DNA of 64,000 nt from positions 62,001 to 126,000 of the forward strand of contig ONEX01000005.1 in NCBI GenBank assembly GCA_900316955.1, in the 5' to 3' direction. The stretch comes from an uncultured Bacteroidales bacterium. GTDB taxonomy: Bacteria; Bacteroidota; Bacteroidia; Bacteroidales; UBA932. The stretch's first letter is position 1. Each line of letters opens with the position of its first letter. Of the stretch, positions 749 through 57,181 are shown in pieces. A program made the position numbers and the translations under genes. Under the pieces are notes generated by a model. The model was not told where the DNA came from. It worked only from the letters and a program-made list of their open reading frames with translations, and ran no database searches.

Positions 749-774
749 GTCATTTCGAGCTTGTCGAGCAATCT
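749..774 (+). repeat. GTCAT...ATCT palindromic element, degenerate copy
   Basis: A 26-base copy beginning GTCAT and ending ATCT sits three bases after the uxaA stop. It shares its ends and length with seven other copies in the window. Its inner part is poorly palindromic, carrying TCGAG twice in direct orientation, so it is a diverged member. It lies between two genes that otherwise look co-transcribed. Confidence 0.6.
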
Positions 775-793
775 AAAATTCTAAATCACTAAT

Positions 794-2236
794 ATGGAAA
801 GATTAAACAGAACTTCCGCCCCGCAGGCGAAACAGTACACCGAAAAGGTCATCCAATTCGGTGAGGGCAACTTCCTCCGCGCGTTCATCGAGTGGATCAT
901 CTGGAAGACCAACCAGAAAACCGATTTCAATGGCTCCGTCGTCGTGGTCCAGCCCATCGAGAAGGGCATGGTCGGCTGGCTCAACGAGCAGGACGGCCTG
1001 TATCACCTGAATCTCCAGGGCCTCCAGGACGGCCAGCCCGTGGACAGCGTCGACCTGATCGACGTCATCAGCCGCGGCCTGAGCCCGTATGAGGACTTCC
1101 AGGGCTACCTGAAGCTCGCCGAGCAGCCGGAGATGCGTTTCGTCATCTCCAATACGACCGAGGCGGGAATCGCTTTCGATCCGGCCTGCAAGCTGGACGA
1201 CGCCCCCGCATCGTCCTATCCCGGCAAGCTCACCCAGCTGCTGTACCACCGCTGGGAGTACTTCAAGGGCGACAAGACCAAGGGCTTCATCATTTTCCCG
1301 TGCGAGCTCATCTTCGAGAACGGCAAGCACCTGAAGGAGTGCATCCGCCAGTACATCGACCTGTGGAACCTGGGCCCGGACTTCCGCGCCTGGTTCGAGG
1401 AGGCTTGCGGCGTGTATTCGACGCTCGTGGACCGCATCGTTCCCGGTTATCCGCGGGACACCGCCGCGCAGCTGTGCGAGCGCGTGGGCTATGACGACCA
1501 TCTGCTGGACAAGGCCGAGATCTTCCACCTGTGGGTGATCGAGGCACCGGCGGAGGTCGCCGCCGAGTTCCCGGCCGACAAGGCCGGCCTGCACGTCCTC
1601 TTCGTCCCGTCCGAGGCTCCGTACCACGAGCGGAAGGTGACCCTGCTCAACGGCCCGCACACCGTGCTTTCGCCGGTGGGCTACCTGAGCGGACTGGACA
1701 CCGTGAAGGAGTGCTGCGAGGATCCCGAGGTGGGCCCGTTCGTGAAGAAGGTGATGTTCGAGGAACTCCTCCCGACGCTCAACCTCCCGAAGGAGGAACT
1801 GGAGAAGTTCGGCTGCGACGTGATGGAGCGCTTCCGCAACCCGTTCGTGAAGCACTTCGTGACGAGCATCATGCTCAACTCCTTCCCGAAGTTCAAGACG
1901 CGCGACCTGCCGGGTCTTAAGACCTACCTGGAGCGCAAGGGCGAACTGCCGAAGGGCATCGTCCTCGGCCTCGCCGCCATCTGCACCTACTACAAGGGCG
2001 GGAAGCGCGGAGACGTGGATATCGTTCCGAACGACGATCCCAAGATCATGGAGCTGCTCAAGGACCTCTGGGCGACCGGCGACGTGCGCAAGGTGGCCGA
2101 GGGCGTCCTGGCCGACGAATTCATCTGGGGCGAGAACCTGAACGCCATCCCGGGCCTGACCGACCTCCTGGAGTCCGACCTCGCCCTCATCCAGGCCGAA
2201 GGCATGCGCGCCGCCGTCAAAACTGTAATTGCTTAA
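794..2236 (+). CDS. uxaB: Tagaturonate reductase (altronate oxidoreductase)
   Basis: This cytoplasmic NADH-dependent enzyme reduces D-tagaturonate to D-altronate, the step before altronate dehydratase in galacturonate catabolism. It has 480 residues, as expected for the mannitol dehydrogenase/UxaB family. The N-terminal dinucleotide-binding motif QFGEGNFLRAFIEWI lies at about residues 21-35. The family block containing VTLLNGPHTVLSPVGYLSG follows in the middle of the protein, where the catalytic C-terminal domain begins. ATG at 794 is the natural start. It ends in TAA four bases before the transporter ATG, so the operon with uxaA and exuT is clear. Confidence 0.95.
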   Translation: MERLNRTSAPQAKQYTEKVIQFGEGNFLRAFIEWIIWKTNQKTDFNGSVVVVQPIEKGMVGWLNEQDGLYHLNLQGLQDGQPVDSVDLIDVISRGLSPYEDFQGYLKLAEQPEMRFVISNTTEAGIAFDPACKLDDAPASSYPGKLTQLLYHRWEYFKGDKTKGFIIFPCELIFENGKHLKECIRQYIDLWNLGPDFRAWFEEACGVYSTLVDRIVPGYPRDTAAQLCERVGYDDHLLDKAEIFHLWVIEAPAEVAAEFPADKAGLHVLFVPSEAPYHERKVTLLNGPHTVLSPVGYLSGLDTVKECCEDPEVGPFVKKVMFEELLPTLNLPKEELEKFGCDVMERFRNPFVKHFVTSIMLNSFPKFKTRDLPGLKTYLERKGELPKGIVLGLAAICTYYKGGKRGDVDIVPNDDPKIMELLKDLWATGDVRKVAEGVLADEFIWGENLNAIPGLTDLLESDLALIQAEGMRAAVKTVIA

Positions 2237-2240
2237 TACT

Positions 2241-5570: not shown

Positions 5571-5662
5571 GCGTGGCTTCAGGTCCATTTGCTGGGACGA
5601 TGGACACGATTACCCGCGGTTTTCATGGCTTGCCCTACATCGGTTGGGACGGTAGCCACGGT
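5571..5662 (+). repeat. Left 92-bp direct repeat of the transposase island
   Basis: It aligns without gaps to 7506-7597 at about 78% identity (counted by eye). Shared blocks include AGGTCCAT, GGACGATGG, CACGATT, GTTTTC, GGCTTGCCCT and TGGGACG. Inside are short inverted repeats (GTCC...GGAC and GTCCAT...ATGGAC), so it can fold like a REP-type element. The two copies bracket the 285-residue gene and the Y1 transposase. Confidence 0.75.
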
Positions 5663-5779: not shown

Positions 5780-6637
5780 ATGAGCGTCTTGAGTCAATGT
5801 ATGAGCATCATCCAGCTAACTTCCTTGGATTGGTCGTGGAAGGAGCGCTTCAGCATGGTGGGCCATTCGTTCCGGGTGATGGCGATGGCAAAGAATCTTG
5901 ATGAGATGGTGGTGGGTATGATGCACGCTTTCTATGCCGGATCCGGTTATACGAGGGCCCTATTTGACATCGATGTGGATGGAGACCCGGAGTGGAAGGC
6001 GGCTTTGGATCTTTTCGTGCCGCCTTTGAAGATGAAACGGCCCAAGTCAAAGTATGACGTGCCTGCAGAAGATTTGCTGGGCGCCAATATGCCACAAATC
6101 TTTTCGGAAGACGAGAAGGCGAGGCAGGACTGGATGATCGGTGAAACGCTTTGGAACACGGCCTATGAAAAGTATATCTGGAAAATCCGTGAGAACAGAA
6201 TCGCCAGGAACGTGATGATCCATAAATTGCTGGATATGCTGGACGTCTTGCGGAATCCAGGCAAATACGAAGATGAGTCTGGTCCCCAATACTATGTCCT
6301 CCCCTGGAAGAAGCATTGGATGATTGACATCCGGGGGAGAGAGACAAGGGTGCCGCGAACGGATGACAAGTATCTCTTGAGAGAACCAACAGCCATTGAA
6401 CGGGCGAACCTGATCGATAAGTATGAGCAGGCACTGGAAATTCTTGTGGATGAAGAGGTTCTTTTCCCTGTCCAGGATTGTTTTACGGAGGAAGAGCATC
6501 GGGAGCACGAACAAGGATGCCACAGTTGGTTCCTGTCCTGGATGGCAGGAGAAAAGGCTGAGATGGAACGATACGGCGAAACGGAGGAAGAATATGAGAG
6601 CGATGGGGAGGAAGAATCCGAAGGATTGTCGTTCTAA
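5780..6637 (+). CDS. Unknown 285-residue protein encoded with the Y1 transposase
   Basis: I do not recognise this protein. It is soluble, with no signal peptide or membrane helix, mixed charge, and a strongly acidic C-terminus (residues about 262-285, rich in Glu). The middle contains aromatic and charged helices (WMIGETLWNTAYEKYIWKIR). It starts at ATG 5780; ATG 5801 is an alternative. Its 3' end overlaps the transposase gene by 44 bases in another frame, so the two are probably translationally coupled. Base composition is lower in GC than the flanking catabolic genes, consistent with transfer. It may be an accessory factor of the transposase, but that is inference from linkage only. Confidence 0.75.
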   Translation: MSVLSQCMSIIQLTSLDWSWKERFSMVGHSFRVMAMAKNLDEMVVGMMHAFYAGSGYTRALFDIDVDGDPEWKAALDLFVPPLKMKRPKSKYDVPAEDLLGANMPQIFSEDEKARQDWMIGETLWNTAYEKYIWKIRENRIARNVMIHKLLDMLDVLRNPGKYEDESGPQYYVLPWKKHWMIDIRGRETRVPRTDDKYLLREPTAIERANLIDKYEQALEILVDEEVLFPVQDCFTEEEHREHEQGCHSWFLSWMAGEKAEMERYGETEEEYESDGEEESEGLSF

Positions 6638-11231: not shown

Positions 11232-12149
11232 ATGGTTTCCGAACTCATCGACAAATACATCTGGCTGGTGCAGACCTTCATCGACGCTGGCCCCGGCGGC
11301 CTGTCGCTGCCCGAGATCGCCGACCGGTGGACCGCCCGCTACGGCGGGACGGACTACCCCCGGCGCTCCTTCAACAACCACCGGGAGGCCGTCGCCGAGG
11401 TATTCGGCATCGAGATCGCCTGCAACCGGAGCACCAACCGTTATTATATAGACGCGGGGGAGAGCGCCGTCGACAAGCGGCAGTCCGTCGACTGGCTCGT
11501 CAATACCTTCACGGTGAACAACCTTCTCTCCCTCGGGAAGGAGCGCCTCTCCGGCCGCGTGGCCGTCGAGGACATCCCCTCGGGCCAGAAGCACCTGGTC
11601 ACCGTGATGCAGGCGATGCTGGACAATGCCGTGATGAAACTCCGCTACCGGAAATACCTCAGCGAAGAGGAGGAAATCCGGCACATCCGGCCCTATGCGG
11701 TGAAGGAATTCGAGAAGCGGTGGTATATCGTCGCCTATAGCGAGGAGGCGGAAACCCTGCGCGTCTATGCGATGGACCGCATCCTTTCCCTGACCCCGAC
11801 GGGGGAGCATTTCAAGATGCCGAAAGGCTTCCGGGTCGATGACCTTTTCGAGGCCAGCTACGGCATCTATCTCCCCGAAGATGTACCGCCGGTGCTCGTG
11901 CGGCTCCGGACGACGGCGCGCGAAGCCGCCTACCTGAAGGACTTGCCCATCCACCCGAGCCAGGTCTTCCTGGGGGAGGAAAAAGACGGCCGATGCCTCT
12001 TCGCCATGCGCGTCATCCCGAATCCGAACCTGGTCATGGAGCTGTGCCGGCACGGAAACCGGCTCGAAGTGCTGGAACCGGAGGCCTTGCGGGAGCAAGT
12101 GGCGGATGAATTGCGTAACGCGTTGAAAATCTATGAAAGAAACAAATAA
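11232..12149 (+). CDS. WYL-domain transcriptional regulator
   Basis: Predicted DNA-binding regulator of the PafC/WYL class, 305 residues. The first ~75 residues form a winged-helix-like region (LSLPEIADRW...YPRRSFNNHREAV). The WYL domain follows, with the characteristic RPYAVKEFEKRWYIVAY, in which Trp-Tyr-Ile stands for the WYL signature. A C-terminal WCX-like extension has LRTTAREAAYLKDLP. WYL domains are known to sense ligands, often nucleic acids, but the target here is unknown. It is divergent from gdhA. Its end overlaps a rejected upstream start of the S9 peptidase, with ATG 12157 eight bases after its stop. Confidence 0.88.
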   Translation: MVSELIDKYIWLVQTFIDAGPGGLSLPEIADRWTARYGGTDYPRRSFNNHREAVAEVFGIEIACNRSTNRYYIDAGESAVDKRQSVDWLVNTFTVNNLLSLGKERLSGRVAVEDIPSGQKHLVTVMQAMLDNAVMKLRYRKYLSEEEEIRHIRPYAVKEFEKRWYIVAYSEEAETLRVYAMDRILSLTPTGEHFKMPKGFRVDDLFEASYGIYLPEDVPPVLVRLRTTAREAAYLKDLPIHPSQVFLGEEKDGRCLFAMRVIPNPNLVMELCRHGNRLEVLEPEALREQVADELRNALKIYERNK

Positions 12150-12156
12150 GTTTTAT

Positions 12157-14367
12157 ATGAAAACAAAAATGTTAACCCTCGCGTTGGCGGCTTTTTCCCT
12201 CCTCGCGTGCAAGCAAGAACCCATGAAACCACAGCAAGGTTACATCGGTCCGGCCGACTTGAAGATCGAGGACGGCCGGATGACCCCGGAAGTCCTCCTG
12301 TCCCTCGGACGCCTCTCCGATCCGCAGCTTTCCCCGGACGGAAAGACCATCCTGTACGGGGTCAGCTACACCTCGATCGCCGAGAACCGCAGCGTCCGCA
12401 ACCTCTTCACCCTCCCGGCCGAAGGCGGCGCGCCGACGCAGCTCACCATGGACGGCAAGAGCATCTCGAACGCCCGCTGGTCTCCGGACGGCGGCTGGAT
12501 CTTCTTCCTCCAGGGCGGTCAGGTATGGAAGGCGCCCTACAAGGCCGGCAAGCTGGGCAAGCGCGTCCAGGTGACGGACGTCGAGCGGGGTGTCGACGAG
12601 TTCACCCTTTCTCCGGACGCCGGCCAGATCATGTACGTGAGCACGGTGCACAGCGCCGTCGAGCGTCCCGTGGACACCGACCCGCTGCTGGACAAGGCCG
12701 ACGCCTATGCGACCGAGGATCTCATGTACCGCCATTGGGACCACTGGATGGAGGACATCAACCATACCTTCATCGCCCCGCTCGGCAACGGCATTGTCAA
12801 GGAGGGCCTGGACATCCTGGGCGGTCCGGATGTGCTGTACCAGCTCCCGAACGGCCCCTTCGGCGGCATCGAGAACCTCTGCTGGAGCCCGGACGGCCGC
12901 TACGTCGCCTATTCCTGCAAGAAGAAGGAAGGCAAGGAATACGCTTTCTCCACCGATACGGAAATCTACATCTACTGCATCCTGACCGGCGAGACCACCG
13001 TCATCCCCCTGGGCGGCGGCTATGACACCGTGCCCGTGTGGAGCCCCGACGGCAGCAAGATCGCCTGGCTGTCCATGGCCCGGGACGGCTACGAGGCCGA
13101 CAAGGTGCGCCTGATGGTGGCCGATGTCGTCTATGAGCCGGAAGGGGAGGGGCAGACCGCCAATCCTGCCGTCGAAAACATCGTGGACCTGACCGCGGAT
13201 TTCGCCTACAATGTCGACGGCCCCGTCTGGGCGGCTGACAGCAAGTCCTTGTATTTCAATTCGCTCGTGGAAGGCGTCCAGGCCATCTACAACGTGATCG
13301 CCGATCCCGAGACAGCCTTCTTCCGCATCACCGCCCCGAGCCTCTGGTTCGATTTCGGCTCCCCGTTCGCCGTCCTCCAGGACGGCACGCTCCTCACGAC
13401 GTACTGCTCGATGGACTTCCCGACCGAACTCGTGGCCGTGAAGGACAACTCCATCGACCAGCTCACCTTCGAGAACGCCCATCTGCTGGACCAGCTGGAC
13501 AAGCACGAGACCGAGGCCCGCATGGTGCCCACGGCTGACGGCGGGCAGATGCTCACCTGGGTCCTGTACCCGCCCAAGTTCGACCCCACGAAGGTGTACC
13601 CGGCCATCCAGATCTGCCTCGGCGGCCCGCAGGGCACCCTGTCGCAGGGCTGGTCCTACCGCTGGAACTACTGCCTGATGGCCCACCAGGGCTATGTCGT
13701 CGTCCTTCCGAACCGCCACGGTACGACCGCCTTCGGCCAGCCCTGGTGCGAGCAGATCTCGGGCGACTACATCGGCCTGAACATGCAGGATTACATGGCC
13801 GCCGCGAAGATGATCAAGGACGAGCCGTATGTGGACAAGGTGGCCGCCTGCGGCGCTTCCTACGGCGGCTATAGCGTTTATTATCTGGCTGGTATCCACG
13901 GTGACCTGTACGATTGCTTCATCGCCCACGCGGGCATCTTCAACGAGGAACACATGTACATGACCACCGAGGAAATGTGGTTCCCGAACTGGGACAACGG
14001 CGGCATCCCGCACGAGTACGCCTACGAAGCAGGGCAGGTGGGCCCGGCCGGCGACGGCATCACCTTCGGCGGCATCCAGCAGGCCGGATCGCCCTGGTCC
14101 AACGCCCCGAAGGCCGTCCGCCACTACGCCAACTCCCCGCACAAGCTCGTCCAGAACTGGCACACCCCGATCCTGTGCATCCACGGCGGCATGGACTTCC
14201 GCGTCCCGTACGACGAGGGCATGGCCGCGTTCAACGCCGCCCAGATGATGGGCGTCCCGTCGAAGCTGGTCGTGTTCCCGGGTGAAAACCACTGGATCCT
14301 CAAGCCGCAGAACGCCCTGTACTGGCACCGGACGTATTTCGGCTGGCTGGACCGCTGGATGAAATAG
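12157..14367 (+). CDS. S9 family prolyl oligopeptidase-like lipoprotein peptidase
   Basis: Serine peptidase of the S9 class (dipeptidyl/acylaminoacyl-peptidase type), about 736 residues, predicted to be a periplasmic or surface lipoprotein from its SpII signal (MKTKMLTLALAAFSLLAC). A seven-bladed beta-propeller region (about 60-430) has repeated SPDG blade motifs (LSPDGKTILYG, WSPDGGWIFF, WSPDGRYVAYS). The alpha/beta-hydrolase domain follows, with nucleophile Ser about 567 in CGASYGGYS, Asp about 679 in GGMDFRVPYDEG and His about 711 in PGENHWIL. ATG 12157 is preferred over an in-frame ATG at 12133, because the signal peptide begins there. It ends immediately before a pair of palindromic elements. 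Confidence 0.92.
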   Translation: MKTKMLTLALAAFSLLACKQEPMKPQQGYIGPADLKIEDGRMTPEVLLSLGRLSDPQLSPDGKTILYGVSYTSIAENRSVRNLFTLPAEGGAPTQLTMDGKSISNARWSPDGGWIFFLQGGQVWKAPYKAGKLGKRVQVTDVERGVDEFTLSPDAGQIMYVSTVHSAVERPVDTDPLLDKADAYATEDLMYRHWDHWMEDINHTFIAPLGNGIVKEGLDILGGPDVLYQLPNGPFGGIENLCWSPDGRYVAYSCKKKEGKEYAFSTDTEIYIYCILTGETTVIPLGGGYDTVPVWSPDGSKIAWLSMARDGYEADKVRLMVADVVYEPEGEGQTANPAVENIVDLTADFAYNVDGPVWAADSKSLYFNSLVEGVQAIYNVIADPETAFFRITAPSLWFDFGSPFAVLQDGTLLTTYCSMDFPTELVAVKDNSIDQLTFENAHLLDQLDKHETEARMVPTADGGQMLTWVLYPPKFDPTKVYPAIQICLGGPQGTLSQGWSYRWNYCLMAHQGYVVVLPNRHGTTAFGQPWCEQISGDYIGLNMQDYMAAAKMIKDEPYVDKVAACGASYGGYSVYYLAGIHGDLYDCFIAHAGIFNEEHMYMTTEEMWFPNWDNGGIPHEYAYEAGQVGPAGDGITFGGIQQAGSPWSNAPKAVRHYANSPHKLVQNWHTPILCIHGGMDFRVPYDEGMAAFNAAQMMGVPSKLVVFPGENHWILKPQNALYWHRTYFGWLDRWMK

Positions 14368-14391
14368 ATTCCCGGTCAAGCCGGGAATGAC
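14366..14391 (-). repeat. GTCAT...ATCT palindromic element (inverted orientation)
   Basis: This copy has a perfect 8-bp stem (ATTCCCGG/CCGGGAAT) with a 5-base loop. Its first two bases are part of the S9 peptidase stop codon. It is identical over 26 bases to the copy at 52218-52243. It forms a head-to-head pair with the next element, 11 bases away, between two convergent genes, where it could also serve as a terminator. Confidence 0.85.
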
Positions 14392-14402
14392 GACGAATGA
14401 CC

Positions 14403-14429
14403 GTCATGCCCGGCCCCGACCGGGCATCT
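14403..14429 (+). repeat. GTCAT...ATCT palindromic element overlapping the recG stop
   Basis: A 27-base element with stem ATGCCCGG/CCGGGCAT and a 6-base loop. It is identical in all 27 bases to the element inside rfbB at 27567-27593. The recG stop codon (minus strand 14430-14428) is formed by its last two bases plus one neighbour, so the element has redefined the end of recG. Confidence 0.88.
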
Positions 14430-16563
14430 ATGATATCTTGGAATAGTCCTTCTGGACATATTTGTCTTTCCGAAGCTCGGCCGCGAGAACCGCGTTGCCG
14501 GGCTTTTCCAATGTGGGGTCGAGGTCCAGGATGTGGGCCGCGTAGCCGCGGGCGTCGGACAGGATGACACCGTCGCGGGCGAGGGAGGCGATGTTCAGGG
14601 AGATGGGGAGGCCGGACTGCTGCGTGCCCTCGAGGTCGCCGGGCCCGCGCATCTTCATGTCCTCTTCCGCGATCTCGAAGCCGTCCTCCGTGGCGCACAT
14701 CAAGTCCAGGCGCTTCTGGGATTCCTTGGAAACCTTGGTCCCCTTCATCAAGATGCAGTAGGAGCGTTCCGCGCCCCGGCCCACGCGGCCGCGCAGCTGG
14801 TGCAACTGGCTCAGGCCGAAGCGTTCCGCGCTTTCGATGACCATCACGGACGCGTTGGGGACGTCTACGCCCACCTCGATGACGGTGGTGGACACGAGGA
14901 TGTTCGCCCGGCCCGCCGAGAAGGCGTCCATGAAGAACTTCTTTTCCTCGGCCGTCTGCCGCCCGTGGACGATCGCCACCTGGTACCGGGGCTCGGGGAA
15001 CTGCCGGATGACCTCTTCGTAGCCGAGTTCCAGGTTCTTGTAGTCCAGTTTCTCGCTCTCGAAGATGAGCGGATAAACGATGAAGGCCTGGCGCCCCTTT
15101 GCGATCTCGTCGCGGATGAAATTGTACATCGCGATGCGCTTGTTCTCGCCCACGCAGAGTGTCTGGACGGGCTTCCGGCCCGGCGGCATCTCGTCGATGA
15201 CGGAGACGTCCAGGTCCCCGTACAGGGTCATGGCGAGGGTGCGGGGGATGGGGGTGGCCGTCATCACGAGCACGTGCGGGGCCACGCCGTCCGCGCCCTT
15301 CGACCAGAGCTTCGCGCGCTGGTCCACGCCGAAGCGGTGCTGCTCGTCCACGATCGCCAGCCCGAGCGCCTTGAACACGACCGTGTCCTCGATGAGGGCG
15401 TGGGTGCCCACGATCAGGCCGATACTGCCGTCCTGGAGCCCGGCGTGGATCTCGCGCCGGGCCGCCACCCCGGTGGAACCGGTGAGGAGGGCGGCCTTCA
15501 CCCCGGTGGGGACCAGGTACTTGGTGATATTGGCAAAATGCTGATGGGCAAGGACTTCCGTAGGCGCCATCAGGCAGGCCTGGTAGCCGTTCGCGACGGC
15601 GATGAGGGCCGACAGCACGGCCACCATCGTCTTGCCGCTGCCCACGTCTCCCTGCAGGAGGCGGTTCATCTGGTGACCGCCCTTGAGGTCCTCGCGGATT
15701 TCCTTGATCACGCGTTTCTGGGCACCGGTGAGGTCGTAGGGGAGGGCCTGGTAGCAGCGGTTGAACGCCTCGCCCACCCGGGGCATGGGCAGGCCCACGG
15801 CGTTCCGGCTGCGGATGTATTTCTGCTTGAGCAGCGAGAGCTGCAGGTAGAAGAGCTCCTCGAACTTGAGCCGGTAGGTGGCCTTCGCCAGGGCGTTCTG
15901 GTCCACGGGGAAGTGGATCTGCCGGAGGGCGTAGCTCAGGGGCACGAGGCCCTTCTCCTTGAGGATGTAGTCCGGCAGCGTCTCCTCCAGGCCGGGGAGG
16001 ACGAGGTCCAGGGCCGATGCGGCGAGCTTGCACATCAGTTTCCCGGTGATGCCGCCCGTCTTGAGCTTTTCCGTGGACGTGTACACGCCCGTCAGGACGC
16101 CGGCCTGCGCCTGGTCGGGGGCGTCGAATTCGGGATGGACCATGTTGATGCGGCCGTTGAAGGCCTGCGGCTTGCCGAAGAACAGGAAGGTGTGCCCCGG
16201 AATGAGCCGGGAATGCATGTACTTGACGCCCTTGAAGAACACGATCTCCATCTCGCCGCTGTCGTCGCCGATGATGGCCGACAGGCGGCTCACCGCGTTG
16301 TATTTGAGCTTTTCCACGGGGAGTTCGGCGCCGTTCTTTGCAAGCAGGCGGACCTTCAGGACGGTGCCCACGACCTGCACGTAGGACTGGTCCGGGTGGA
16401 TGTCGGCGATCCGCTGGACGGAGCTGCGGTCGATGTAGCGGAAAGGATACAGATGCACGAGGTCTCCCACCGTCGCGATTCCCAGTTCGCTCCTAAGGAG
16501 CGCCGCCCGCCGGGGCCCCACGCCCGGAAGGTACTGGATGTCCGTATCCATCGCCTTGCCCAT
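14428..16563 (-). CDS. recG: ATP-dependent DNA helicase RecG
   Basis: Branched-DNA helicase that remodels stalled replication forks and Holliday junctions. About 711 residues from ATG 16563 (707 from ATG 16551). The N-terminal wedge/OB region begins with DIQYLPGVGPRRAALLRSELG. The motor has Walker A LLQGDVGSGKTMV, the DEQH box VDEQHRFGV, motif III VLVMTATPIPRTLAM and the RecG C-terminal block QLHQLRGRVGRG. The C-terminal codons and stop lie next to or inside a palindromic element. A TATTTTTG -7 box four bases before ATG 16563 favours that start and suggests a leaderless mRNA. It is divergent from the peptidase of the PqqD cassette. Confidence 0.95.
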   Translation of the reverse strand: MGKAMDTDIQYLPGVGPRRAALLRSELGIATVGDLVHLYPFRYIDRSSVQRIADIHPDQSYVQVVGTVLKVRLLAKNGAELPVEKLKYNAVSRLSAIIGDDSGEMEIVFFKGVKYMHSRLIPGHTFLFFGKPQAFNGRINMVHPEFDAPDQAQAGVLTGVYTSTEKLKTGGITGKLMCKLAASALDLVLPGLEETLPDYILKEKGLVPLSYALRQIHFPVDQNALAKATYRLKFEELFYLQLSLLKQKYIRSRNAVGLPMPRVGEAFNRCYQALPYDLTGAQKRVIKEIREDLKGGHQMNRLLQGDVGSGKTMVAVLSALIAVANGYQACLMAPTEVLAHQHFANITKYLVPTGVKAALLTGSTGVAARREIHAGLQDGSIGLIVGTHALIEDTVVFKALGLAIVDEQHRFGVDQRAKLWSKGADGVAPHVLVMTATPIPRTLAMTLYGDLDVSVIDEMPPGRKPVQTLCVGENKRIAMYNFIRDEIAKGRQAFIVYPLIFESEKLDYKNLELGYEEVIRQFPEPRYQVAIVHGRQTAEEKKFFMDAFSAGRANILVSTTVIEVGVDVPNASVMVIESAERFGLSQLHQLRGRVGRGAERSYCILMKGTKVSKESQKRLDLMCATEDGFEIAEEDMKMRGPGDLEGTQQSGLPISLNIASLARDGVILSDARGYAAHILDLDPTLEKPGNAVLAAELRKDKYVQKDYSKIS

Positions 16564-16567
16564 AATG

Positions 16568-16575
16568 CAAAAATA
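16568..16575 (-). promoter_or_regulatory. -7 box of recG, adjacent to its start codon
   Basis: Minus-strand TATTTTTG matches TAnnTTTG with only four bases to ATG 16563. It is 12 bases from the oppositely directed box of the next gene, so the two promoters overlap. Confidence 0.45.
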
Positions 16576-16587
16576 ATAAATCTTTCG

Positions 16588-16595
16588 TAACTTTG
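16588..16595 (+). promoter_or_regulatory. -7 box of the PqqD/ABC cassette
   Basis: TAACTTTG matches TAnnTTTG and lies eight bases before ATG 16604, predicting a leader of only a few bases. No clear -33 TTTG is seen. It faces away from the recG box, so the two genes may exclude each other's transcription. Confidence 0.55.
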
Positions 16596-16603
16596 TCCCT
16601 CGT

Positions 16604-17095
16604 ATGGAAAAGATGATCATCGACAACGACACGTTCTTTGCCGACGTCCTGCAGGTGCTGGACCAGGGGAAGCGGGTGACCATTCCCGTCAAGGGATTCA
16701 GCATGCTCCCGTTCATCCGCGGCGGCAAGGACCTCGTCGTCCTGGAGAAGGCCGGCGGGGACCTGAAGGCCGATGACATCGTCCTGTTCCATGTGGGCCC
16801 CCGGGACGGCGGCCGGTACGTGATGCACCGGATCCTCGCCATCGACGGGGACGCGGTGGACATCATGGGCGACGGGGTTCCCGAGGCCCACGAGCACGTG
16901 CGCCGGAACCAGGTCCTCGCGAAGGCGGTCGAGATTCTCCGCGCCGGAAAGCGCTCCGTGGACCCGTACAGTCCCGGCCAGCTCCGCCTGGTACACTTTT
17001 GGCAGCGCCTGCGCCCCGTGCGCCGGTACATCCTGTTCATCTACCGGCACTTGCCGTGGAACCGTAGTTGGATCAAAGAGAATGTAAACATATGA
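16604..17095 (+). CDS. S24/S26 family (signal peptidase-like) peptidase of the PqqD cassette
   Basis: Small serine peptidase-like protein, 163 residues. The S26-type block VKGFSMLPFIRGG (candidate nucleophile in FSM, about residue 37) is followed by DDIVLFHV and MHRILAIDG. His in MHRI resembles the Ser-His archaeal/SipW type rather than the Ser-Lys bacterial type. The usual N-terminal membrane anchor is absent, but the C-terminal region (VRRYILFIYRHLPW) is hydrophobic enough to sit at a membrane. It is the first gene of a four-gene overlapping cassette and its stop overlaps the PqqD-like ATG. A role in trimming a precursor peptide before export is inference. Confidence 0.78.
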   Translation: MEKMIIDNDTFFADVLQVLDQGKRVTIPVKGFSMLPFIRGGKDLVVLEKAGGDLKADDIVLFHVGPRDGGRYVMHRILAIDGDAVDIMGDGVPEAHEHVRRNQVLAKAVEILRAGKRSVDPYSPGQLRLVHFWQRLRPVRRYILFIYRHLPWNRSWIKENVNI

Positions 17096-26669: not shown

Positions 26670-27202
26670 ATGTAATCGAGACCGGCATCGAAGGAGTGGT
26701 CGTCATCGAACCGAAAGTGTTCGGGGACGAGCGGGGTTATTTCTTCGAGAGCTTCAACGAGCGGGAATTCAACGAGAAAGTGGGCCCCGTTCACTTTGTG
26801 CAGGACAATGAGAGCAAGTCGCGCTACGGCGTGCTTCGCGGACTGCATTACCAGAAAGGGGAGTTCGCCCAGGCGAAACTCGTGCGCGTGGTGCGGGGTT
26901 CCGTGCTGGACGTGGTCGTGGACCTGCGGGAAGGATCGCCTACCTGGGGAAAGTGGCACGCCGAGGAACTGACCGGGGAGAACCACCGGATGATGTTCAT
27001 CCCGCGGGGTTTCGCCCATGGGTTCGTCGTCCTGTCCGAGGAAGTCGTGTTCCAGTACAAGTGCGACAACTTCTACTGCCCGGCGTCCGAAGGCGGCTAC
27101 GCCTGGAACGACCCGACGCTCGCCATCGACTGGCGCATTCCGGCCGCCGACATCATCCTTTCCGAAAGAGACAAACATCATCCCTTCCTATATGAGCAAT
27201 AG
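26666..27202 (+). CDS. rfbC: dTDP-4-dehydrorhamnose 3,5-epimerase
   Basis: Cupin-fold epimerase of dTDP-L-rhamnose synthesis, 178 residues. Family blocks are VFGDERGYFFESFN, VLRGLHYQKGEFAQAKLVRV (catalytic His in GLHYQ), VLDVVVDLR, and FIPRGFAHGFVVLS. ATG 26666 forms an ATGA overlap with the rfbD stop, the strongest start; an in-frame ATG at 26651 would overlap more. It overlaps rfbB by 11 bases. Confidence 0.95.
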   Translation: MNVIETGIEGVVVIEPKVFGDERGYFFESFNEREFNEKVGPVHFVQDNESKSRYGVLRGLHYQKGEFAQAKLVRVVRGSVLDVVVDLREGSPTWGKWHAEELTGENHRMMFIPRGFAHGFVVLSEEVVFQYKCDNFYCPASEGGYAWNDPTLAIDWRIPAADIILSERDKHHPFLYEQ

Positions 27203-28355
27203 AAGAACCATCCTCATTACCGGCGGCGCCGGCTTCATCGGCAGCCACGTCGTGCGGCTGTTCGTGAACAAATATCCGGACTACCGGATCATCAACCTGG
27301 ACAAGCTCACCTACGCGGGCAATCTCGCGAACCTCAAGGATATCGAGGACCGGCCGAACTACCGGTTCGTCAAGATGGACATCTGCGACTTCGAGGGCGT
27401 GCTCGCCCTGATGCAGGAAGAGAAGGTGGATGGCGTGATCCACCTTGCGGCGGAGTCCCATGTGGACCGCTCCATCAAGGACCCCTTCACCTTCGCGCAG
27501 ACCAATGTCATCGGCACGCTGTCCATGCTGCAGGCCGCCAAGGCGTACTGGGAGCCGATGGGCTACGTCATGCCCGGCCCCGACCGGGCATCTGTTCCAT
27601 GCCGCTTCTACCACATCTCCACGGACGAGGTGTACGGCGCCCTGGAGATGACGCATCCGGAGGGGATCGAGCCGCCGTTCACGACGAAGGCGTCCAGCGG
27701 CGAGCATCACCTGGCCTACGGCGAAAAGTTCTTCACGGAGGACCTCAAGTACCAGCCGCACAGCCCGTACAGCGCCGCGAAGGCGTCCAGCGACCACTTC
27801 GTGCGCGCGTTCCATGATACGTACGGAATGCCCACCATCGTCACGAACTGCTCCAACAACTACGGGCCTTACCAGTTCCCGGAGAAGCTCATCCCGCTGT
27901 TCGTCAACAACATCCGGCACCGCAAGCCGCTGCCCGTGTACGGCAAGGGCGAGAACGTCCGCGACTGGCTGTACGTGGAGGACCACGCCCGGGCCATCGA
28001 CCTGATCTTTCATGAGGGGAAGGTCGCCGAGACCTACAACATCGGCGGCTTCAACGAGTGGAAGAACATCGACATCGTGAAGACGCTCATCCGCGTCACG
28101 GACCGCCTCCTGGGCCGTCCGGAAGGGGCCGACGACGACCTCATCACCTACGTGACCGACCGCGCCGGCCACGACCTCCGCTACGCCATCGACAGCACCA
28201 AGCTCCAGCGCGAACTGGGCTGGGAGCCCTCCCTCCAGTTCGAGGAAGGCATCGAGAAGACCATCCGCTGGTACCTCGACAACCAGGCCTGGCTGGACAA
28301 CGTCACCAGCGGGGATTACCAGAAGTATTACGAGGAGATGTACAAGGGAAGATGA
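27192..28355 (+). CDS. rfbB: dTDP-glucose 4,6-dehydratase with an in-frame palindromic insert
   Basis: Converts dTDP-glucose to dTDP-4-keto-6-deoxyglucose, 387 residues, slightly longer than usual. The Rossmann motif ILITGGAGFIGSHV, the catalytic STDEVYG (Asp-Glu pair) and YSAAKAS (YxxxK) are intact, as is VTNCSNNYGPYQFPEKLIP. Residues about 126-134 (VMPGPDRAS) are encoded by a 27-base palindromic element inserted in frame, just before the conserved strand FYHISTDEVYG. The flanking codons read through cleanly, so the protein is probably still functional. ATG 27192 overlaps rfbC; the stop overlaps licD (ATGA). Confidence 0.94.
   Translation: MSNRRTILITGGAGFIGSHVVRLFVNKYPDYRIINLDKLTYAGNLANLKDIEDRPNYRFVKMDICDFEGVLALMQEEKVDGVIHLAAESHVDRSIKDPFTFAQTNVIGTLSMLQAAKAYWEPMGYVMPGPDRASVPCRFYHISTDEVYGALEMTHPEGIEPPFTTKASSGEHHLAYGEKFFTEDLKYQPHSPYSAAKASSDHFVRAFHDTYGMPTIVTNCSNNYGPYQFPEKLIPLFVNNIRHRKPLPVYGKGENVRDWLYVEDHARAIDLIFHEGKVAETYNIGGFNEWKNIDIVKTLIRVTDRLLGRPEGADDDLITYVTDRAGHDLRYAIDSTKLQRELGWEPSLQFEEGIEKTIRWYLDNQAWLDNVTSGDYQKYYEEMYKGR
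27567..27593 (+). repeat. GTCAT...ATCT palindromic element inside rfbB
   Basis: This 27-base element is identical to the copy at 14403-14429, which ends recG. It contributes nine codons in frame to rfbB. The identity over all 27 bases, including loop bases, argues for recent copying rather than chance coding similarity. Confidence 0.92.
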
Positions 28356-44734: not shown

Positions 44735-45822
44735 TGTCATTCCGAGCGAAGCGAAGGAATCTTTTCCTTCTTTTAGTCGCCGTGCTGGCGGCCTCCTGCA
44801 CCCGTCCGGACATCCTCACGCTGTTCGTCGGCACCTATTCCGACGGCTTCTACGCCTATGATTTCGACCAGCGGGCCGGGGAGTTCGTCGGGGAAGGTCC
44901 CGTCGCCAAGGCGGAGATGCCCAACCCGTCCTACCTGGCCGTCCGTGACAGCCGGGTGTACGCCGTCTCCGAAATGCCCGACACCACGGCCTCCGTCTGG
45001 GCCTGGCGCTGGGGCGGCAATGGATTCGAACTCATCAATTCCCAGCCTACAGGGCTCCCTGCTCACGGCGAAGACCCTTGCTACGTCGCTACCGACGGCA
45101 CCCTCCTGGCCGTAGCGAACTACTCCGGCGGTACGCTCGCCACCTACCGGCTCCGCGAGGACGGCAGCATCGCCCCGCTGGACTCGCTGCTCGTTTCGGG
45201 AACCGGCGGCCCCGACCTGTCCCGTCAGGCGGACCCCCATGTGCATTGCGCCGTCTTTTCGCCTGAAGGAAAGCATCTGTTTTTCAGTGAATTCAGCGCC
45301 GATGAAATCGGCCGCATGGATGTGTACGCGGGCGGCGTCCGCGGCTATTGCCGCGCGGCTTCCCTGCATGCCGACTACGGTCCCCGGCATCTGCTGTTCG
45401 ACGCTTCCGGCAAGCATCTGTACGTGATCGGCGAGCTTTCCGGCGACATCACCGTGTTCGACTACGCCGACGGCGCCCTGACCGAGAAGCAGGTCATCAA
45501 GGCCGACCGGATGGACGCCCGCGGCGCCGCGGACATCCACTTCTCCCCGGACGGCAAGTTCCTGTACGCGAGCCTCCGCCTCCGCGGCGACGGCATCGTC
45601 GTCTTCGAGGTCGGCCCCGGCGGGCTGCTGAACTATGTGGGCTATACGGCCACCGGTCCGCATCCCCGCAATTTCAACATCACTCCGAACGGACGTTTCG
45701 TCCTGGTGTGCTGCCGGGACAACGATTCCGTGGAAATCTACGAGCGGGATGCGGCGACGGGGCTCCTCACCTTCACCGGCCGCCGCCTCACCCAGACCCG
45801 CCCCGTTTACATCGGATGGTAA
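44734..45822 (+). CDS. Lactonase-family beta-propeller lipoprotein
   Basis: 362-residue seven-bladed propeller of the 6-phosphogluconolactonase/lactonase family (PF10282 type), with TLFVGTYSDGFYAYDFD, NPSYLAVRDSRVYAVSE, DPHVHCAVFSPEGKHLF and GPRHLLFDASGKHLYVIGE. The N-terminus has an SpII signal (LFLLLVAVLAASC), so it is predicted to be periplasmic or surface-anchored rather than a cytoplasmic lactonase. The start codon and first eight codons (MSFRAKRRN) come from a palindromic element, which supplies the positively charged n-region. Substrate is unknown. Confidence 0.88.
   Translation: MSFRAKRRNLFLLLVAVLAASCTRPDILTLFVGTYSDGFYAYDFDQRAGEFVGEGPVAKAEMPNPSYLAVRDSRVYAVSEMPDTTASVWAWRWGGNGFELINSQPTGLPAHGEDPCYVATDGTLLAVANYSGGTLATYRLREDGSIAPLDSLLVSGTGGPDLSRQADPHVHCAVFSPEGKHLFFSEFSADEIGRMDVYAGGVRGYCRAASLHADYGPRHLLFDASGKHLYVIGELSGDITVFDYADGALTEKQVIKADRMDARGAADIHFSPDGKFLYASLRLRGDGIVVFEVGPGGLLNYVGYTATGPHPRNFNITPNGRFVLVCCRDNDSVEIYERDAATGLLTFTGRRLTQTRPVYIGW
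44736..44762 (+). repeat. GTCAT...ATCT palindromic element forming a signal-peptide start
   Basis: A 27-base copy with a 5-bp terminal stem (ATTCC/GGAAT). Its first G completes the ATG of the lactonase gene, and the element encodes the basic SFRAKRRN n-region before the hydrophobic core. Confidence 0.88.
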
Positions 45823-50846: not shown

Positions 50847-52019
50847 ATGCGTTGCGAAGACCGATTCTTTGAAACCTATGGCCGGGACTACGACGGCATC
50901 GCCTTCTGTCCCTACCGCATCTGCCCCATCGGGGCGCATTCCGACCATAACCTCGGTAAAATCACCGGACTGGCCATCGACAAAGGCATCCATATCGTGT
51001 ATGCCGCCAAGCAGAACGGGGTGGTGGAGATGTCCTCCATCCAGTTCCCGAAGCGGGCGCAGTGGCACATCGAGAACGTCCCGCCCCGGAAGGAAGGGGA
51101 CTGGGCCGACTACCTGCGCGGCGCCACGCTCTCGCTGGAGCGCGAGCACCGGCTGAAGGTGGGCATCTGCGGCGTCATCGAAGGCACGCTGCCCATCGGC
51201 GGCCTCTCGTCGTCGGCCGCCGTCATCATCGCCTTCCTCACGGCCCTCTGCCGGGTGAACGACATCCGCTTGAGTGCCCAGGAACTCATCGACCTGGCCT
51301 ATGACGCAGAGCTCAACTATGTGGGCGTGTCCGTGGGCAAGCTGGACCAGAGCTGCGAAGTGCTCAGCCAGGCGCATCACCTGCTGTACCTGGATACGAA
51401 GGACGGCCAGTACGAGCTGATCCCGGAGCATCCGGACATGAAACCGTACAAGATCGCCATCTTCTTCTCGGGACTGGAGCACAGCCTGGCCGGTTCCAAG
51501 TACAACATGCGGGTCGATGAGCTCCGCAGCGGTGTCTATGCCCTGCAGGCCTTCGCCGGCATGGAGTACGGCAAGTTCAAGGACGCCATGGCCCGGAATG
51601 TCCCGCGGGAGGTGTATGAGACCTACAAGGACCGCCTGCCCGTCCCATGGCGCAAGCGCTGCGAGCATTGGTACACGGAGTTTGAACGCGTGGAGAAAGG
51701 CGCCGAAGCCTGGCGCCGCGGCGACATCGAAACCTATGGCCGCCTGTCCTTCGAATCCGGCTGGAGCAGCATCCACAACTGGGAATCCGGCGCTCCGGAG
51801 CAGATCCGCCTGTACGAGATCATGACCCGGACGGAAGGGATCTACGGCGGCCGCTTCTCCGGGGCGGGCTTCAAGGGCTGCTGCATGGCCCTCATCGACC
51901 CGGCCTATGCCGATGCCATCGCCGACCAGGTGACCGCCGCCTACCTGAAGGACTTCCCGCGTCTCGCGGACAAGTACGGCGTCTATATTTGTGACAGCGC
52001 TGACGGATTGAACTTATGA
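50847..52019 (+). CDS. GHMP sugar kinase, galactokinase-like
   Basis: 390-residue GHMP kinase. CPYRICPIGAHSDHN matches the galactokinase sugar-binding start, LPIGGLSSSAAVIIA is the ATP-binding GHMP motif 2, and FSGAGFKGCCMALI is motif 3. The best relatives are sugar-1-kinases such as galacto-, arabino- or galacturonokinase; the sugar cannot be read from sequence. Since galacturonate metabolism and uronic-acid nucleotides occur in this window, a uronokinase role is possible. It overlaps a sugar nucleotidyltransferase (ATGA), a natural kinase/pyrophosphorylase pair. Confidence 0.85.
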   Translation: MRCEDRFFETYGRDYDGIAFCPYRICPIGAHSDHNLGKITGLAIDKGIHIVYAAKQNGVVEMSSIQFPKRAQWHIENVPPRKEGDWADYLRGATLSLEREHRLKVGICGVIEGTLPIGGLSSSAAVIIAFLTALCRVNDIRLSAQELIDLAYDAELNYVGVSVGKLDQSCEVLSQAHHLLYLDTKDGQYELIPEHPDMKPYKIAIFFSGLEHSLAGSKYNMRVDELRSGVYALQAFAGMEYGKFKDAMARNVPREVYETYKDRLPVPWRKRCEHWYTEFERVEKGAEAWRRGDIETYGRLSFESGWSSIHNWESGAPEQIRLYEIMTRTEGIYGGRFSGAGFKGCCMALIDPAYADAIADQVTAAYLKDFPRLADKYGVYICDSADGLNL

Positions 52020-52792
52020 AATGCCTGATCCTCGCCGCGGGATACGCCACGCGGCTTTACCCGCTTACCGAAAACTTCCCCAAGCCCCTCCTGAAGGTAG
52101 GGGAGAAGACCATCCTGGACTGGCTCATCGACGACGTCGACCGGGCCGGCCTCATCGACGAGTACGTCGTCATCTCCAACCACAAGTTCGCCCCGATCTT
52201 CGAGGACTGGGCGAAAGAGATTCCCGGTCAAGCCGGGAATGACGTCGGTCGTCATGCCCGACCTGATCGGGCATCTATCACCGTCCTGGACGACGGAACC
52301 TCCACGAACGAGACGCGCCTCGGCGCCGTGCGGGACATCCAGTTCGCCATCGACACGCTGGGTCTGGACGACGACCTGCTGGTGATGGCAGGGGACAACC
52401 TGCTGGATTTCAGCCTGGTGCGTTTCCTGGAATATGCGCAGGAGAAGGGGACGACCTGCATCATGCGCTACTTCGAACCGTCGGAGGAGAAGCTCCACAA
52501 GACCGGTGTCGCCACCGTCGACGGGAACGGCCTGATCCTGGAGATGGAGGAGAAACCCGCCCATCCCAAGAGCCATTGGTGCTGCCCGCCGTTCTATTTC
52601 TACCGCCGTAGCGACGTGCCGCTCGTGAAGGTGGGTATCGACAGCGGCTGCGGCGTGGACGCCCCGGGCAGTTTCATCGCCTGGCTTTCCGCGCAGACCC
52701 CGGTCCATGCCTGGGAAATGCCCGGCAAGCGCTATGACATTGGTAACCTGGCCTCCTATGAGGAGGTGAAACGAAACTATAAAGGCTTATGA
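52016..52792 (+). CDS. Sugar-phosphate nucleotidyltransferase with an in-frame palindromic insert
   Basis: 258-residue nucleotidyltransferase. The N-terminus [21 protein letters not shown] and the metal block [10 protein letters not shown] belong to the RmlA/HddC-like family. Residues about 68-87 are encoded by two palindromic elements and seven spacer bases, a 59-base insertion that keeps frame. Without it the length would be about 238, normal for the family. The insert falls in a surface-type segment between an alpha helix and the [15 protein letters not shown] block. It overlaps the kinase before it and the dehydrogenase after it. The sugar is unknown. Confidence 0.87.
52218..52243 (-). 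repeat. Palindromic element inside the nucleotidyltransferase gene (first of pair)
   Basis: It is identical over 26 bases to the inverted copy at 14366-14391, with stem ATTCCCGG/CCGGGAAT. Read in frame it gives EIPGQAGND. Confidence 0.92.
52251..52276 (+). repeat. Palindromic element inside the nucleotidyltransferase gene (second of pair)
   Basis: A 26-base copy with stem ATGCCCGA/TCGGGCAT. It is seven bases from the first copy in head-to-head orientation, the same pair arrangement as at 14366-14429. Read in frame it gives RHARPDRAS. Confidence 0.92.
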
Positions 52793-54054
52793 AGATCGCT
52801 GTAGCTGGAACCGGCTATGTGGGCCTCTCGATCGCGACGCTGCTGTCGCAGAAGCACGAGGTCGTGGCGGTGGACGTCGTCCCCGAAAAGGTGGAGAAGA
52901 TCAACGCCCGTCAGAGCCCCATTGCCGACGAATACCTTGAGAAATACCTGGCTGAGAAGCCCTTGCGCCTGAGCGCGACCCTGGACGGCCGCGCGGCGTA
53001 CCGCGACGCCGACTTCGTCGTCATCGCCACACCCACGAATTACGACCCCAAGAAGAACTTCTTCGACACGTCCCACGTGGAAGAGGTCATCGACCTGGTC
53101 CTGGAGGTGAATCCGGACGCGGTCATGGTCATCAAGTCCACCGTCCCGGTGGGCTACACCCGGAATGTCCGGGAGAAGTTCTCCTACCGGGAGCGGCAGG
53201 CCGACGGCACGATGAAGGTCGTCGTCCCGAAGATCCTTTTCGCGCCGGAGTTCCTCCGCGAATCCAAGGCGCTCTACGACAACCTGTATCCTTCCCGGAT
53301 CATCGTCGGGTATGACGGCGAGGCGCTGGAAAGCGCCGCGCGCACCTTCGCGGAGGTCATCAAGGAGGGCGCCCTCAAGGAGGACGTGCCCGTGCTGCTC
53401 ATGGGCTCGACCGAGGCCGAGGCGGTGAAGCTGTTCGCGAACACCTACCTGGCCTTGCGGGTTTCCTATTTCAATGAGCTGGATACCTATGCGGAGATGA
53501 AAGGCCTGGATACCCAGGCGATCATCGAGGGCGTCGGCCTGGACCCGCGCATCGGCACCCACTACAACAACCCGTCTTTCGGCTACGGCGGCTACTGCCT
53601 CCCGAAGGATACGAAGCAGCTCCTGGCGAACTTCAACGATGTGCCGGAGAACCTCATCAAGGCCATCGTGGAGTCCAACCGCACCCGCAAGGACTACATC
53701 GCGGACCGGGTGCTGGAGAAGGCCGGCTTCTACAGCGCCAACAGCGCCTTCGACCCGGCGAAGGAGAAGGAAGTGGTCGTGGGCGTGTACCGGCTCACGA
53801 TGAAGACGGGCTCCGATAACTTCCGCCAGAGCGCCATCCAGGGCATCATGAAGCGCATCAAGGCGAAGGGTGCCAAGGTCATCGTGTACGAGCCGACGCT
53901 CCAGGACGGCATCACCTTCTTCGGCTCCCGCGTGGTGAACGACCTCGCCGCCTTCAAGGCCCAGGCCCAGGCCATCATCGTGAACCGCTACGACCCGGCC
54001 CTCGACGACGTCGCGGACAAGGTCTACACCCGGGATATCTTCAAACGGGACTAG
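52789..54054 (+). CDS. UDP-glucose 6-dehydrogenase
   Basis: NAD-dependent nucleotide-sugar dehydrogenase, 421 residues, oxidising UDP-glucose to UDP-glucuronate. The Rossmann motif [46 protein letters not shown] and the catalytic Cys in [15 protein letters not shown] are all present. It is the direct source of substrate for the epimerase at 45836. It overlaps the nucleotidyltransferase stop by four bases. A UDP-ManNAc or other dehydrogenase specificity is less likely given the sequence. Confidence 0.94.
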
Positions 54055-54056
54055 CC

Positions 54057-55721: not shown

Positions 55722-55744
55722 GTCATTGTTAACACGCATACGAG

Positions 55745-55775: not shown

Positions 55776-55788
55776 ATGTAAAAAATAT

Positions 55789-55804: not shown

Positions 55805-55828
55805 GGTTGATAATTCTTGTTTGAAAAT

Positions 55829-55859
55829 TTTGTCAAGTCGCATAAAAGCCGTAACTTTG
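55829..55859 (+). promoter_or_regulatory. Promoter of the HTH-Gmd gene
   Basis: The -33 TTTG (55829-55832) and -7 TAACTTTG (55852-55859) are separated by 19 bases, an exact consensus match. Only five bases separate it from ATG 55865, so translation would be leaderless and must include the HTH domain. Confidence 0.78.
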
Positions 55860-55864
55860 CATCT

Positions 55865-57157
55865 ATGGTGGATTACGAGATTATCAACAAAATCAAGGCT
55901 GCGCTGACTCAAAAAGGCGTTTCGCAGCGGGAACTGGCCGAGCGGATCGGCAAGGACGAGACGGTCGTGAGCCGTTGGCTGGCCGGAAAGGTGGGCATCG
56001 GTGGGCAGAGTCTCCGGCAGATTGAGGCCGCGCTCGGCATAAACTTGACAAAAGAAAGACAACATACGATGAAGACAGCGCTCATTACGGGGGTGGCGGG
56101 CCAGGACGGCTCCTACCTTTCTGAATTCCTGCTGGAGAAAGGATACGACGTGCACGGCATCATCCGCCGCAGCTCGGTGGATTTCCGCGAACGCATCGCG
56201 CACCTGGAAGGCCAGCCGCATTTCCACCTGCATTATGCCGACATGGGCGACTCCATGAGCCTCGTCCAGGTGATCGGCAAGGTCCGGCCGGACGAAATCT
56301 ACAACCTCGCGGCGCAGAGCCACGTGCAGGTGAGCTTCGACTCGCCGGAATATACGGCGAATGTCGATGCCACAGGCGTCCTCCGCATCCTGGAGGCCGT
56401 ACGCCAGTGCGGGCTCGCCGGGACGTGCCGGATCTACCAGGCATCGACCTCGGAGCTGTACGGCAAGGTGGAGGAGGTGCCCCAGAACGAGAATACGCCC
56501 TTCCATCCCTACAGTCCTTATGCGGTCGCGAAGCTGTACGGTTTCTGGATTGTCAAGGAATACCGCGAGGCTTACGGCATGTACTGCTGCTCCGGCATCC
56601 TGTTCAACCACGAATCCGAGCGGCGCGGCGAGACGTTCGTCACGCGCAAGATCACGCTGGCCGCCGCCCGCATCGCCCAGGGCAAGCAGGACAAGCTGTA
56701 TCTCGGCAACCTCTCCAGTCTCCGCGACTGGGGCTATGCAAAGGATTATGTCGAGTGCATGTGGCTCATCCTCCAGCAGAAGAAGGCGGAAGACTTCGTC
56801 ATCGCCACCGGCGTCCAGCACAGCGTGCGCGATTTCTGCGCCCTGGCCTTCCGCCATGTCGGCATCGAGCTCGAGTTCGTCGGGGAAGGGGCCGATGAGA
56901 AAGGCATCGACAAGGCCACCGGCCGCGTGCTGGTGGAGGTGAGCCCGGACTTCTACCGGCCCACGGACGTGGTGAACCTCTGGGGCGACCCGACCAAGGC
57001 CCGCGCGAAGCTGGGCTGGAACCCGCAGAAGACCACCTTCGAGCAGCTCGTGAAGCTGATGGTGGACCACGACATGGCGAAGGTCGCCGGCGAAGGCGCC
57101 GCAGAGAAGGTCCGGATGAACTTGGCGGAGTATCTGGAGAAGGGTATCGTCAAATAG
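55865..57157 (+). CDS. gmd: GDP-mannose 4,6-dehydratase with an N-terminal HTH (XRE) domain
   Basis: 430-residue fusion. Residues 1-68 form an XRE-type helix-turn-helix ([24 protein letters not shown]). From Met69 the standard Gmd follows: [23 protein letters not shown], the catalytic [16 protein letters not shown] and [10 protein letters not shown], and [15 protein letters not shown]. Gmd makes GDP-4-keto-6-deoxymannose for GDP-L-fucose. No stop separates the two parts, and the promoter lies directly before ATG 55865, so the fusion is real unless translation also starts at ATG 56069. A dyad upstream could be its own operator. Its stop lies in a palindromic element. Confidence 0.9.
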
Positions 57158-57181
57158 ATTTCTCGGCAAGCTCGAAATGAC
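57156..57181 (-). repeat. Palindromic element joining gmd to the next gene
   Basis: A 26-base inverted copy (AGAT...ATGAC, 5-bp ATTTC/GAAAT stem). Its left end lies in the gmd stop codon and its right end supplies the ATG of the next gene (57177), so it makes up the whole intergenic junction. Confidence 0.82.

Follow-up and report, generated by a model that had tools for sequence, protein, structure and literature searches.

The 64,000-nucleotide stretch analyzed here (the window; positions 62,001 to 126,000 of the forward strand of contig ONEX01000005.1, GenBank assembly GCA_900316955.1) comes from an uncultured Bacteroidales bacterium whose genome, G000, comprises 3.13 Mb in 38 contigs; the G+C content of the window is 60%. 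It carries eight copies of a small palindrome, identified here as units of a repetitive extragenic palindromic (REP) family with a CGTC-type head, dispersed within and between genes that include recG, rmlB, and a nucleotidyltransferase gene (Table 1). All eight lie where an earlier note, made from the letters alone, had placed them, and its further particulars are borne out: two pairs of copies are identical base for base (14366 and 52218 over 26 nt, 14403 and 27567 over 27 nt), two pairs are arranged head to head with 11 and 7 bases separating their GTCAT boxes, and six of the eight overlap coding sequence or a start or stop codon, three being intragenic (27567, 52218, and 52251) and three supplying stops (14366 and 14403 for two convergent genes, and 57156). 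The remaining copies, 749 and 44736, begin 1 to 3 nt past a stop codon.

Table 1. REP units and associated genes in the window
Feature	Position	Strand	Remarks
Single REP unit, imperfect stem	748..776	+	3 nt past stop of gene 2-745; unit also in sister species G003
REP unit, CTTGA loop, left half of head-to-head heterodimer	14364..14392	-	Tail is TAG stop of 12133-14367
REP unit, CCCCGA loop, right half of heterodimer	14402..14431	+	Tail is TAG stop of recG
REP unit in frame in rmlB	27566..27595	+	Encodes YVMPGPDRASV; G003 without unit; other REP cluster in G021
Single REP unit, TGTC head, bulged stem	44735..44764	+	Directly past stop of gene 43868-44734; in G003 no unit or a doubtful remnant
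REP unit, left half of in-frame dimer in nucleotidyltransferase gene	52216..52244	-	
REP unit, right half of nucleotidyltransferase dimer	52250..52278	+	Two halves together encode 22 residues
REP unit forming TAG stop of gene 55865-57157 and likely ATG of 57177-58346	57154..57182	-	Kept in G003
Host gene rmlB, dTDP-glucose 4,6-dehydratase	27192..28355	+	Best solved relative 8du1
Host gene, nucleotidyltransferase (PF00483)	52016..52792	+	
S9 prolyl oligopeptidase-like gene	12133..14367	+	Ends in dimer
recG	14428..17040	-	Ends in dimer

Five of the eight copies are perfect hairpins consisting of (C)GTC, an 8-bp stem enclosing a loop of 5 to 6 nt, and CT plus one base, and the other three (749, 44736, and 57156) have bulged, imperfect stems. 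These three score 14.5 to 15.5 for stem and ends, inside the range of shuffled sequence, as would chance palindromes joined by a reader's eye; they are assigned to the family by their likeness to copies at other loci (e.g., L028:441, L015:10214, L031:10504, and L027:14077), some of which are in the training set of the model described below. The five perfect copies score 16.5 or more, a level attained at 36 sites in 464 kb of G000 versus none in one first-order Markov shuffle, and GTCATTCCGG, with one mismatch at most, is present at 566 sites genome-wide versus 149 for the pattern reversed. For the family as a whole, an origin by chance is refuted. The 464-kb sample is non-random: its stretches were taken from contigs on which head matches or Y1 transposase genes were listed, together with the neighbors of the window.

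A covariance model of the unit (R1), which has all eight window copies in its training set, recovers in the window, at E ≤ 1, those eight copies and nothing besides. It gives 46 matches in the 464-kb sample and, at E ≤ 0.05, at least 145 in G000. Among the 61 genomes of the genus with a completeness of at least 75%, 45 have one or more matches at E ≤ 0.01, ranging from 1 to at least 121; since filtering was strict, a count of zero may reflect missed units. Outside the taxonomic family, 6 of 16 genomes of the same order have matches, 1 to 4 in five of them and 26 in G032.

The architecture of the unit was described from 89 units, 45 in the G000 sample and 44 in a sample of the sister species G003 that covers the contig with synteny to the window along with the surroundings of high-scoring matches, and is likewise non-random; one partial match (L027:10311, 1 of the 46 in G000) is excluded from the 45-unit counts and included in the dimer count of 46. 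Each unit starts with an unpaired CGTC-like head, followed by a stem of 8 bp (bulged in one subtype) that closes a short loop, and ends in a short tail. Units are found singly or as head-to-head dimers of unlike units. The G000 heads are CGTC in 23, TGTC in 11, CCTC in nine, and other in two, with GTAG-type heads absent. The first two stem positions are invariantly A and T in alignment A1 (25 units, picked by GTCAT-based scans), and bulged or shorter stems characterize the GCGAAG-loop subtype. Assuming an 8-bp stem, the loop is 5 nt long in 31 of the 45 G000 units and 6 nt in 14, and the 3-nt tail is CTC in 49 of the 89 units, CTA in 22, CTG in 11, CTT in four, and other in three. Neighbor pairs within 100 bp are head to head in nine cases, tail to tail in none, and in the same direction in one among the 46 G000 matches, and the corresponding numbers are 15, zero, and zero among the 44 in G003. 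All 24 head-to-head pairs join unlike units (two close CCTC variants in the AtpG pair described below), commonly a CTTGA loop with an ATTCC-type stem and a partner with an ATG-type stem, and the gaps range from 4 to 43 nt, with 15 of the 24 at 4 to 10 nt. Same-direction triplets of CGTC units spaced 36 to 56 bp apart are also seen in relatives (G054:C18:272914-273038, G014:C13:31-160, and G020:C180:2-122), and clusters of CGTC repeats are called rare in PMC3733652.

The units fit the CGTC superfamily defined by Di Nocera et al. in 2013 (PMC3733652), which contains families CGTC-1 to CGTC-4 and for which the phyla listed include Bacteroidetes, with Gramella forsetii named; the host here is a Bacteroidales genus. 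Shared features are the CGTC, TGTC, or CCTC head, the 8-bp stem starting AT (a stem of 8 to 9 bp with A in position one and T in position two is described for the superfamily), the head-to-head dimers with tail-to-tail pairs rare, and the presence of some units within genes, the recB genes of two Xanthomonas species being reported to be hit at about one site (PMC3733652). Loop and tail agree in part: the loop is given as 4 to 5 nt in the superfamily, where ours is 5 nt in most units and 6 nt in the rest, the tail there is mostly CCA and here mostly CTC, CTA, or CTG, and superfamily repeats are described as 'predominantly intergenic' (PMC3733652), whereas the intragenic share here is far higher. 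The parallel with Rickettsia palindromic elements (RPEs) and REP sequences that had been drawn from the window proved apt, as PMC3733652 places RPE-6 in CGTC-1 and RPE-4 in CGTC-4. RPE-4 and RPE-6 belong to the same superfamily and share the habit of in-frame insertion in unrelated, often housekeeping genes (PMC3733652; RPE in-frame fusions are reviewed in PMC10969869); they differ in having a host of an unrelated phylum, and in our genus the subtypes differ between sister species at one loop, to which the recB case in Xanthomonas is comparable. REP sequences have been surveyed as recently as 2025 (PMC12306157). We found no report of such repeats in this bacterial group in the open-licence literature. 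The kind of element is already known, and what is new here is the host group, the high intragenic share, and the recurrence in the same loops.

Comparison with related genomes, which is at the level of species and not of strains, shows loci that carry units in one species and lack them in its sisters, and the empty sites indicate that units have been gained or lost since close species split. The junction of recG and the peptidase gene was compared in 13 relatives with RecG proteins 83 to 97% identical, all of them Bacteroidales or Bacteroidia metagenome genomes and many labelled ruminant stomach. Eight are empty (L033, L034, L035, L037, L040, L041, L044, and L045), two have a single unit (L036 and L043), one has a different dimer (L038), and two are ambiguous (L039 and L042). 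The stop codons of the two genes share a CTAG in G003, and the G000 dimer sits at that point, its tails forming both stops. Six sites could be compared between the window and G003, of which three are common, two are G000-only, and one is ambiguous. The nucleotidyltransferase dimer is present in two of 12 orthologues (G000 and G003), and the G004 gene has a different hairpin-forming insert there, found by eye and by folding and not called by R1. Dimers in a second loop of MurB (10 aligned) and in a transglutaminase (6 aligned) are found only in G000, a dimer in the UDP-glucose dehydrogenase of G003 is absent from the G000 orthologue (window 52789-54054), and among 29 aligned rmlB genes (relatives plus self) G000 has one unit, G003 has none, and G021 has a different REP cluster. 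Altogether, orthologues both with and without an insert were found for five genes.

Some of these empty sites bear on an alternative in which no transposase is involved: units would propagate through gene conversion or homologous recombination that starts at short REP-head-like stretches, together with horizontal exchange of whole loci. At the place of the G000 unit, the rmlB genes of G004 (L119) and G011 (L118) read CGTCATGCCCG, apparently as part of the ordinary coding sequence, and TACGTCATGCCCG stands exactly where that unit begins with the same letters (window 27018-28355), a possible seed for insertion or conversion; similarly, CGTCATACCCG adjoins the insertion point in the empty G000 UDP-glucose dehydrogenase allele, and unlike subtypes at one locus in sister species could reflect conversion of an older unit. 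However, the empty recG/peptidase site of G003 lacks a CGTC head, and recombination neither predicts the head-to-head pairing of unlike units nor explains the link to Y1 transposases described below. We consider it unlikely that the units spread in this way.

The positions of the units relative to genes depend on gene calls from a caller retrained on Pfam-supported genes, which clips some starts (e.g., that of recG). In G000, 22 of the 45 units are wholly intragenic, nine supply a TAG stop with their CTA tail, and 14 lie elsewhere (five of them no more than 3 nt from a gene 3' end); in G003, 30 of the 44 are wholly intragenic, two supply a TAG stop, and 12 lie elsewhere (again five within 3 nt of a 3' end). 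Over both samples, 52 of 89 units are wholly within called genes, with the frames open. Called coding sequence makes up about 90% of the DNA, so that intragenic units are rarer than random placement predicts, yet much commoner than the term 'extragenic' implies. The double role of the 57154-57182 palindrome, as stop of one gene and likely start of the adjoining one, may be repeated at L019:4152 and L027:4985, although alternative start codons are possible there. Units read forward use one frame in 17 of 26 cases (e.g., VIPGLTRNL and VMPGPDRAS), as do those read in reverse in 18 of 26 (e.g., EIPGQARND). Host genes were checked in part with Pfam, which matched nine of 10 G000 proteins in addition to window genes, and the supported hosts include GcpE (IspG), MurB, DAP epimerase (DapF), an ATP-synt protein, a SpoU methylase, an M20 peptidase, an amidohydrolase, and a short-chain dehydrogenase, plus RmlB and the nucleotidyltransferase in the window. 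The ATP-synt protein is presumably the F1 gamma subunit, AtpG.

An accumulation near gene ends could mean that the units are selected RNA or DNA signals, such as terminators or stabilizers of mRNA. Of the non-intragenic units, 14 of 23 in G000 and 7 of 14 in G003 (21 of 37 in total) touch the 3' end of a gene or lie no more than 3 nt from it, a stop is supplied by 11 of the 89 units, and perfect units give stable RNA folds. The TAG-supplying tails are partly forced, because the same tail in that frame within a gene would end it. The 52 wholly intragenic units and the several positions that differ between sister species speak against a signal, as does an Rfam scan of the window in which no family scored above threshold, and we regard such a role as very improbable.

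The earlier note had proposed an active or recently active repeat that tolerates insertion in coding DNA, to be checked by a model-based genome scan and a search for empty sites. The scan gave an excess over chance and the comparison of sister species gave both filled and empty loci; high copy number, differences in presence between species, and open intragenic frames support the proposal, although present-day movement is not shown. We regard as real a CGTC-REP family with RPE-like habits that is gained or lost on a between-species scale.

Several loops are occupied by different subtypes in different species. In the MurB loop near residue 88 (10 aligned) the unit is of CCTC type in G000 (41.5 bits), CGTC in G003 (43.9 bits), and of TGTC type in G005 (38.5 bits). 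In the AtpG loop (14 aligned), G000 has a CCTC pair, G003 a TGTC unit (a weak match, 24.8 bits), and G019 a dimer, and the RmlB loop has units of unlike subtypes in G000 and G021 (the latter weak, at 22.1 bits). Either these are tolerant loops in which in-frame inserts survive and so are met again and again, or older units have been converted to other subtypes, and the data separate neither from the other. A bolder interpretation is that a live system repeatedly places different CGTC subtypes in the same surface loops of the essential proteins MurB, AtpG, and RmlB across species, acting as a source of in-frame loop peptides and being moved in trans by Bacteroidales Y1 transposases with unrelated end palindromes; we offer this tentatively and hold it to be doubtful.

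Taken together, the copies probably are units of a CGTC-tagged REP family of this uncultured Bacteroidales genus whose survivors do little harm and whose head-to-head dimer is mobile. The dimer would be the moving unit, and a Y1 (HUH) transposase of the TnpA-REP or REP-associated tyrosine transposase (RAYT) type, encoded elsewhere in the genome, would process it in trans in the form of a single-stranded DNA hairpin. Insertions would persist where they are least harmful, at stop codons, between genes, and in frame in surface loops, and in the last case the palindrome would be translated as a Pro/Gly-rich peptide of about nine residues per unit or 20 per dimer, predicted to lie at the protein surface. 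No host function is necessary to account for the units. REPINs and GTAG REPs with their RAYT or TnpA-REP genes (PMC3116915, PMC2817692, and PMC6006769) provide a close model, as the head-to-head pair is the likely mobile unit and Y1 genes are present in the same genomes, although the head here is CGTC and not GTAG. CGTC repeats were described as apparently lacking a dedicated transposase, and their mover was left open in the 2013 paper (PMC3733652).

Mobilization in trans is suggested by the distribution of Y1_Tnp matches, which are present in 34 of 36 genomes with at least five units versus 13 of 25 others (Fisher p = 1.5e-4), in 41 of 45 versus 6 of 16 with the cut at one unit (p = 5.6e-5), and in 30 of 31 versus 17 of 30 with the cut at 10 units (p = 1.8e-4), relatedness being ignored throughout. 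REP and Y1 counts are correlated across the 61 genomes (Spearman 0.45, p = 2.4e-4, with REP counts as lower bounds), and in a control across the genus genomes DDE_Tnp_1 is not associated with REP richness (p = 0.58). Genome size correlates weakly with REP count (0.20) and Y1 count (0.21).

We note that several observations weigh against mobilization by Y1 transposases. The association is uncorrected for relatedness and uses REP counts that are lower bounds under strict filters, and it has exceptions, with REP-rich genomes G065 and G071 lacking a Y1 match and 13 REP-poor genomes having one. None of the four G000 Y1_Tnp genes above the Pfam cut-off (L009 to L012) has a CGTC unit called by R1 at its locus. 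L009, L010, and L011 (contigs C12, C35, and C36) are RAYT-like genes. Each has private, unrelated palindromes on either side, which occur as pairs about 20 nt apart and differ from gene to gene; the two sides of the fourth gene have only a 14-mer in common. Across 41 Y1 loci of the genus, a subset of the more numerous Y1 matches scanned with R1 over about 3 kb each, six units were found in five loci versus 2.7 expected from lower-bound genome counts, which is no clear excess. Neither a target-site duplication nor a shared target motif is established: no motif common to the CTAG empty site and a few other filled/empty pairs was seen by eye, and no systematic search was made.

GTAG REP copies flank their RAYT gene, whereas no unit of the present family does so in G000. 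As a rule no transposase gene borders CGTC superfamily repeats (PMC3733652), which holds at the G000 Y1 loci but is less clear-cut in the genus, where 3 of the 41 loci have a unit 70 to 224 nt from the Y1 gene. The nearest approach to the GTAG arrangement is L283 of G044, where units at 1151-1180 and 2486-2515, in opposite orientations, lie 224 and 145 nt from a Y1 gene at 1405-2340; at L272 (G075) a unit is 75 nt from a Y1 gene of just 121 aa, and at L192 (G008) it is 70 nt away. Other palindromes are nearer the Y1 gene than the CGTC units at both L283 and L272. L283 is possibly a CGTC REPtron or a product of chance, and we claim no locus as a CGTC REPtron. In-frame REPs within TnpA-REP genes are described in PMC6006769, as are atypical flanking structures in the mainly Bacteroidetes subclass 2.6, which the private palindromes of the G000 RAYT-like genes resemble; this is a likeness and not a class assignment. 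L009- and L011-type palindromes also have matches away from transposase genes (L031:10013, L028:10968, L028:12610, and L016:5328, the last a bare 11-mer) and may likewise spread. The window itself has a divergent Y1-like gene at 6423-7499 (Y1_Tnp E = 0.0063, 17.1 bits, against a cut-off of 23), bordered by 90-nt repeats that are 79% alike (5572-5661 and 7507-7596) and perhaps a RAYT-like element of its own.

With dozens of sequenced relatives whose copy numbers range from undetected to more than 100, with filled and empty sites, and with a link to Y1 transposases, the question of what moves CGTC REPs becomes testable in this genus. In addition, essential proteins occur here in natural pairs, one member having a REP-coded loop and the other none.

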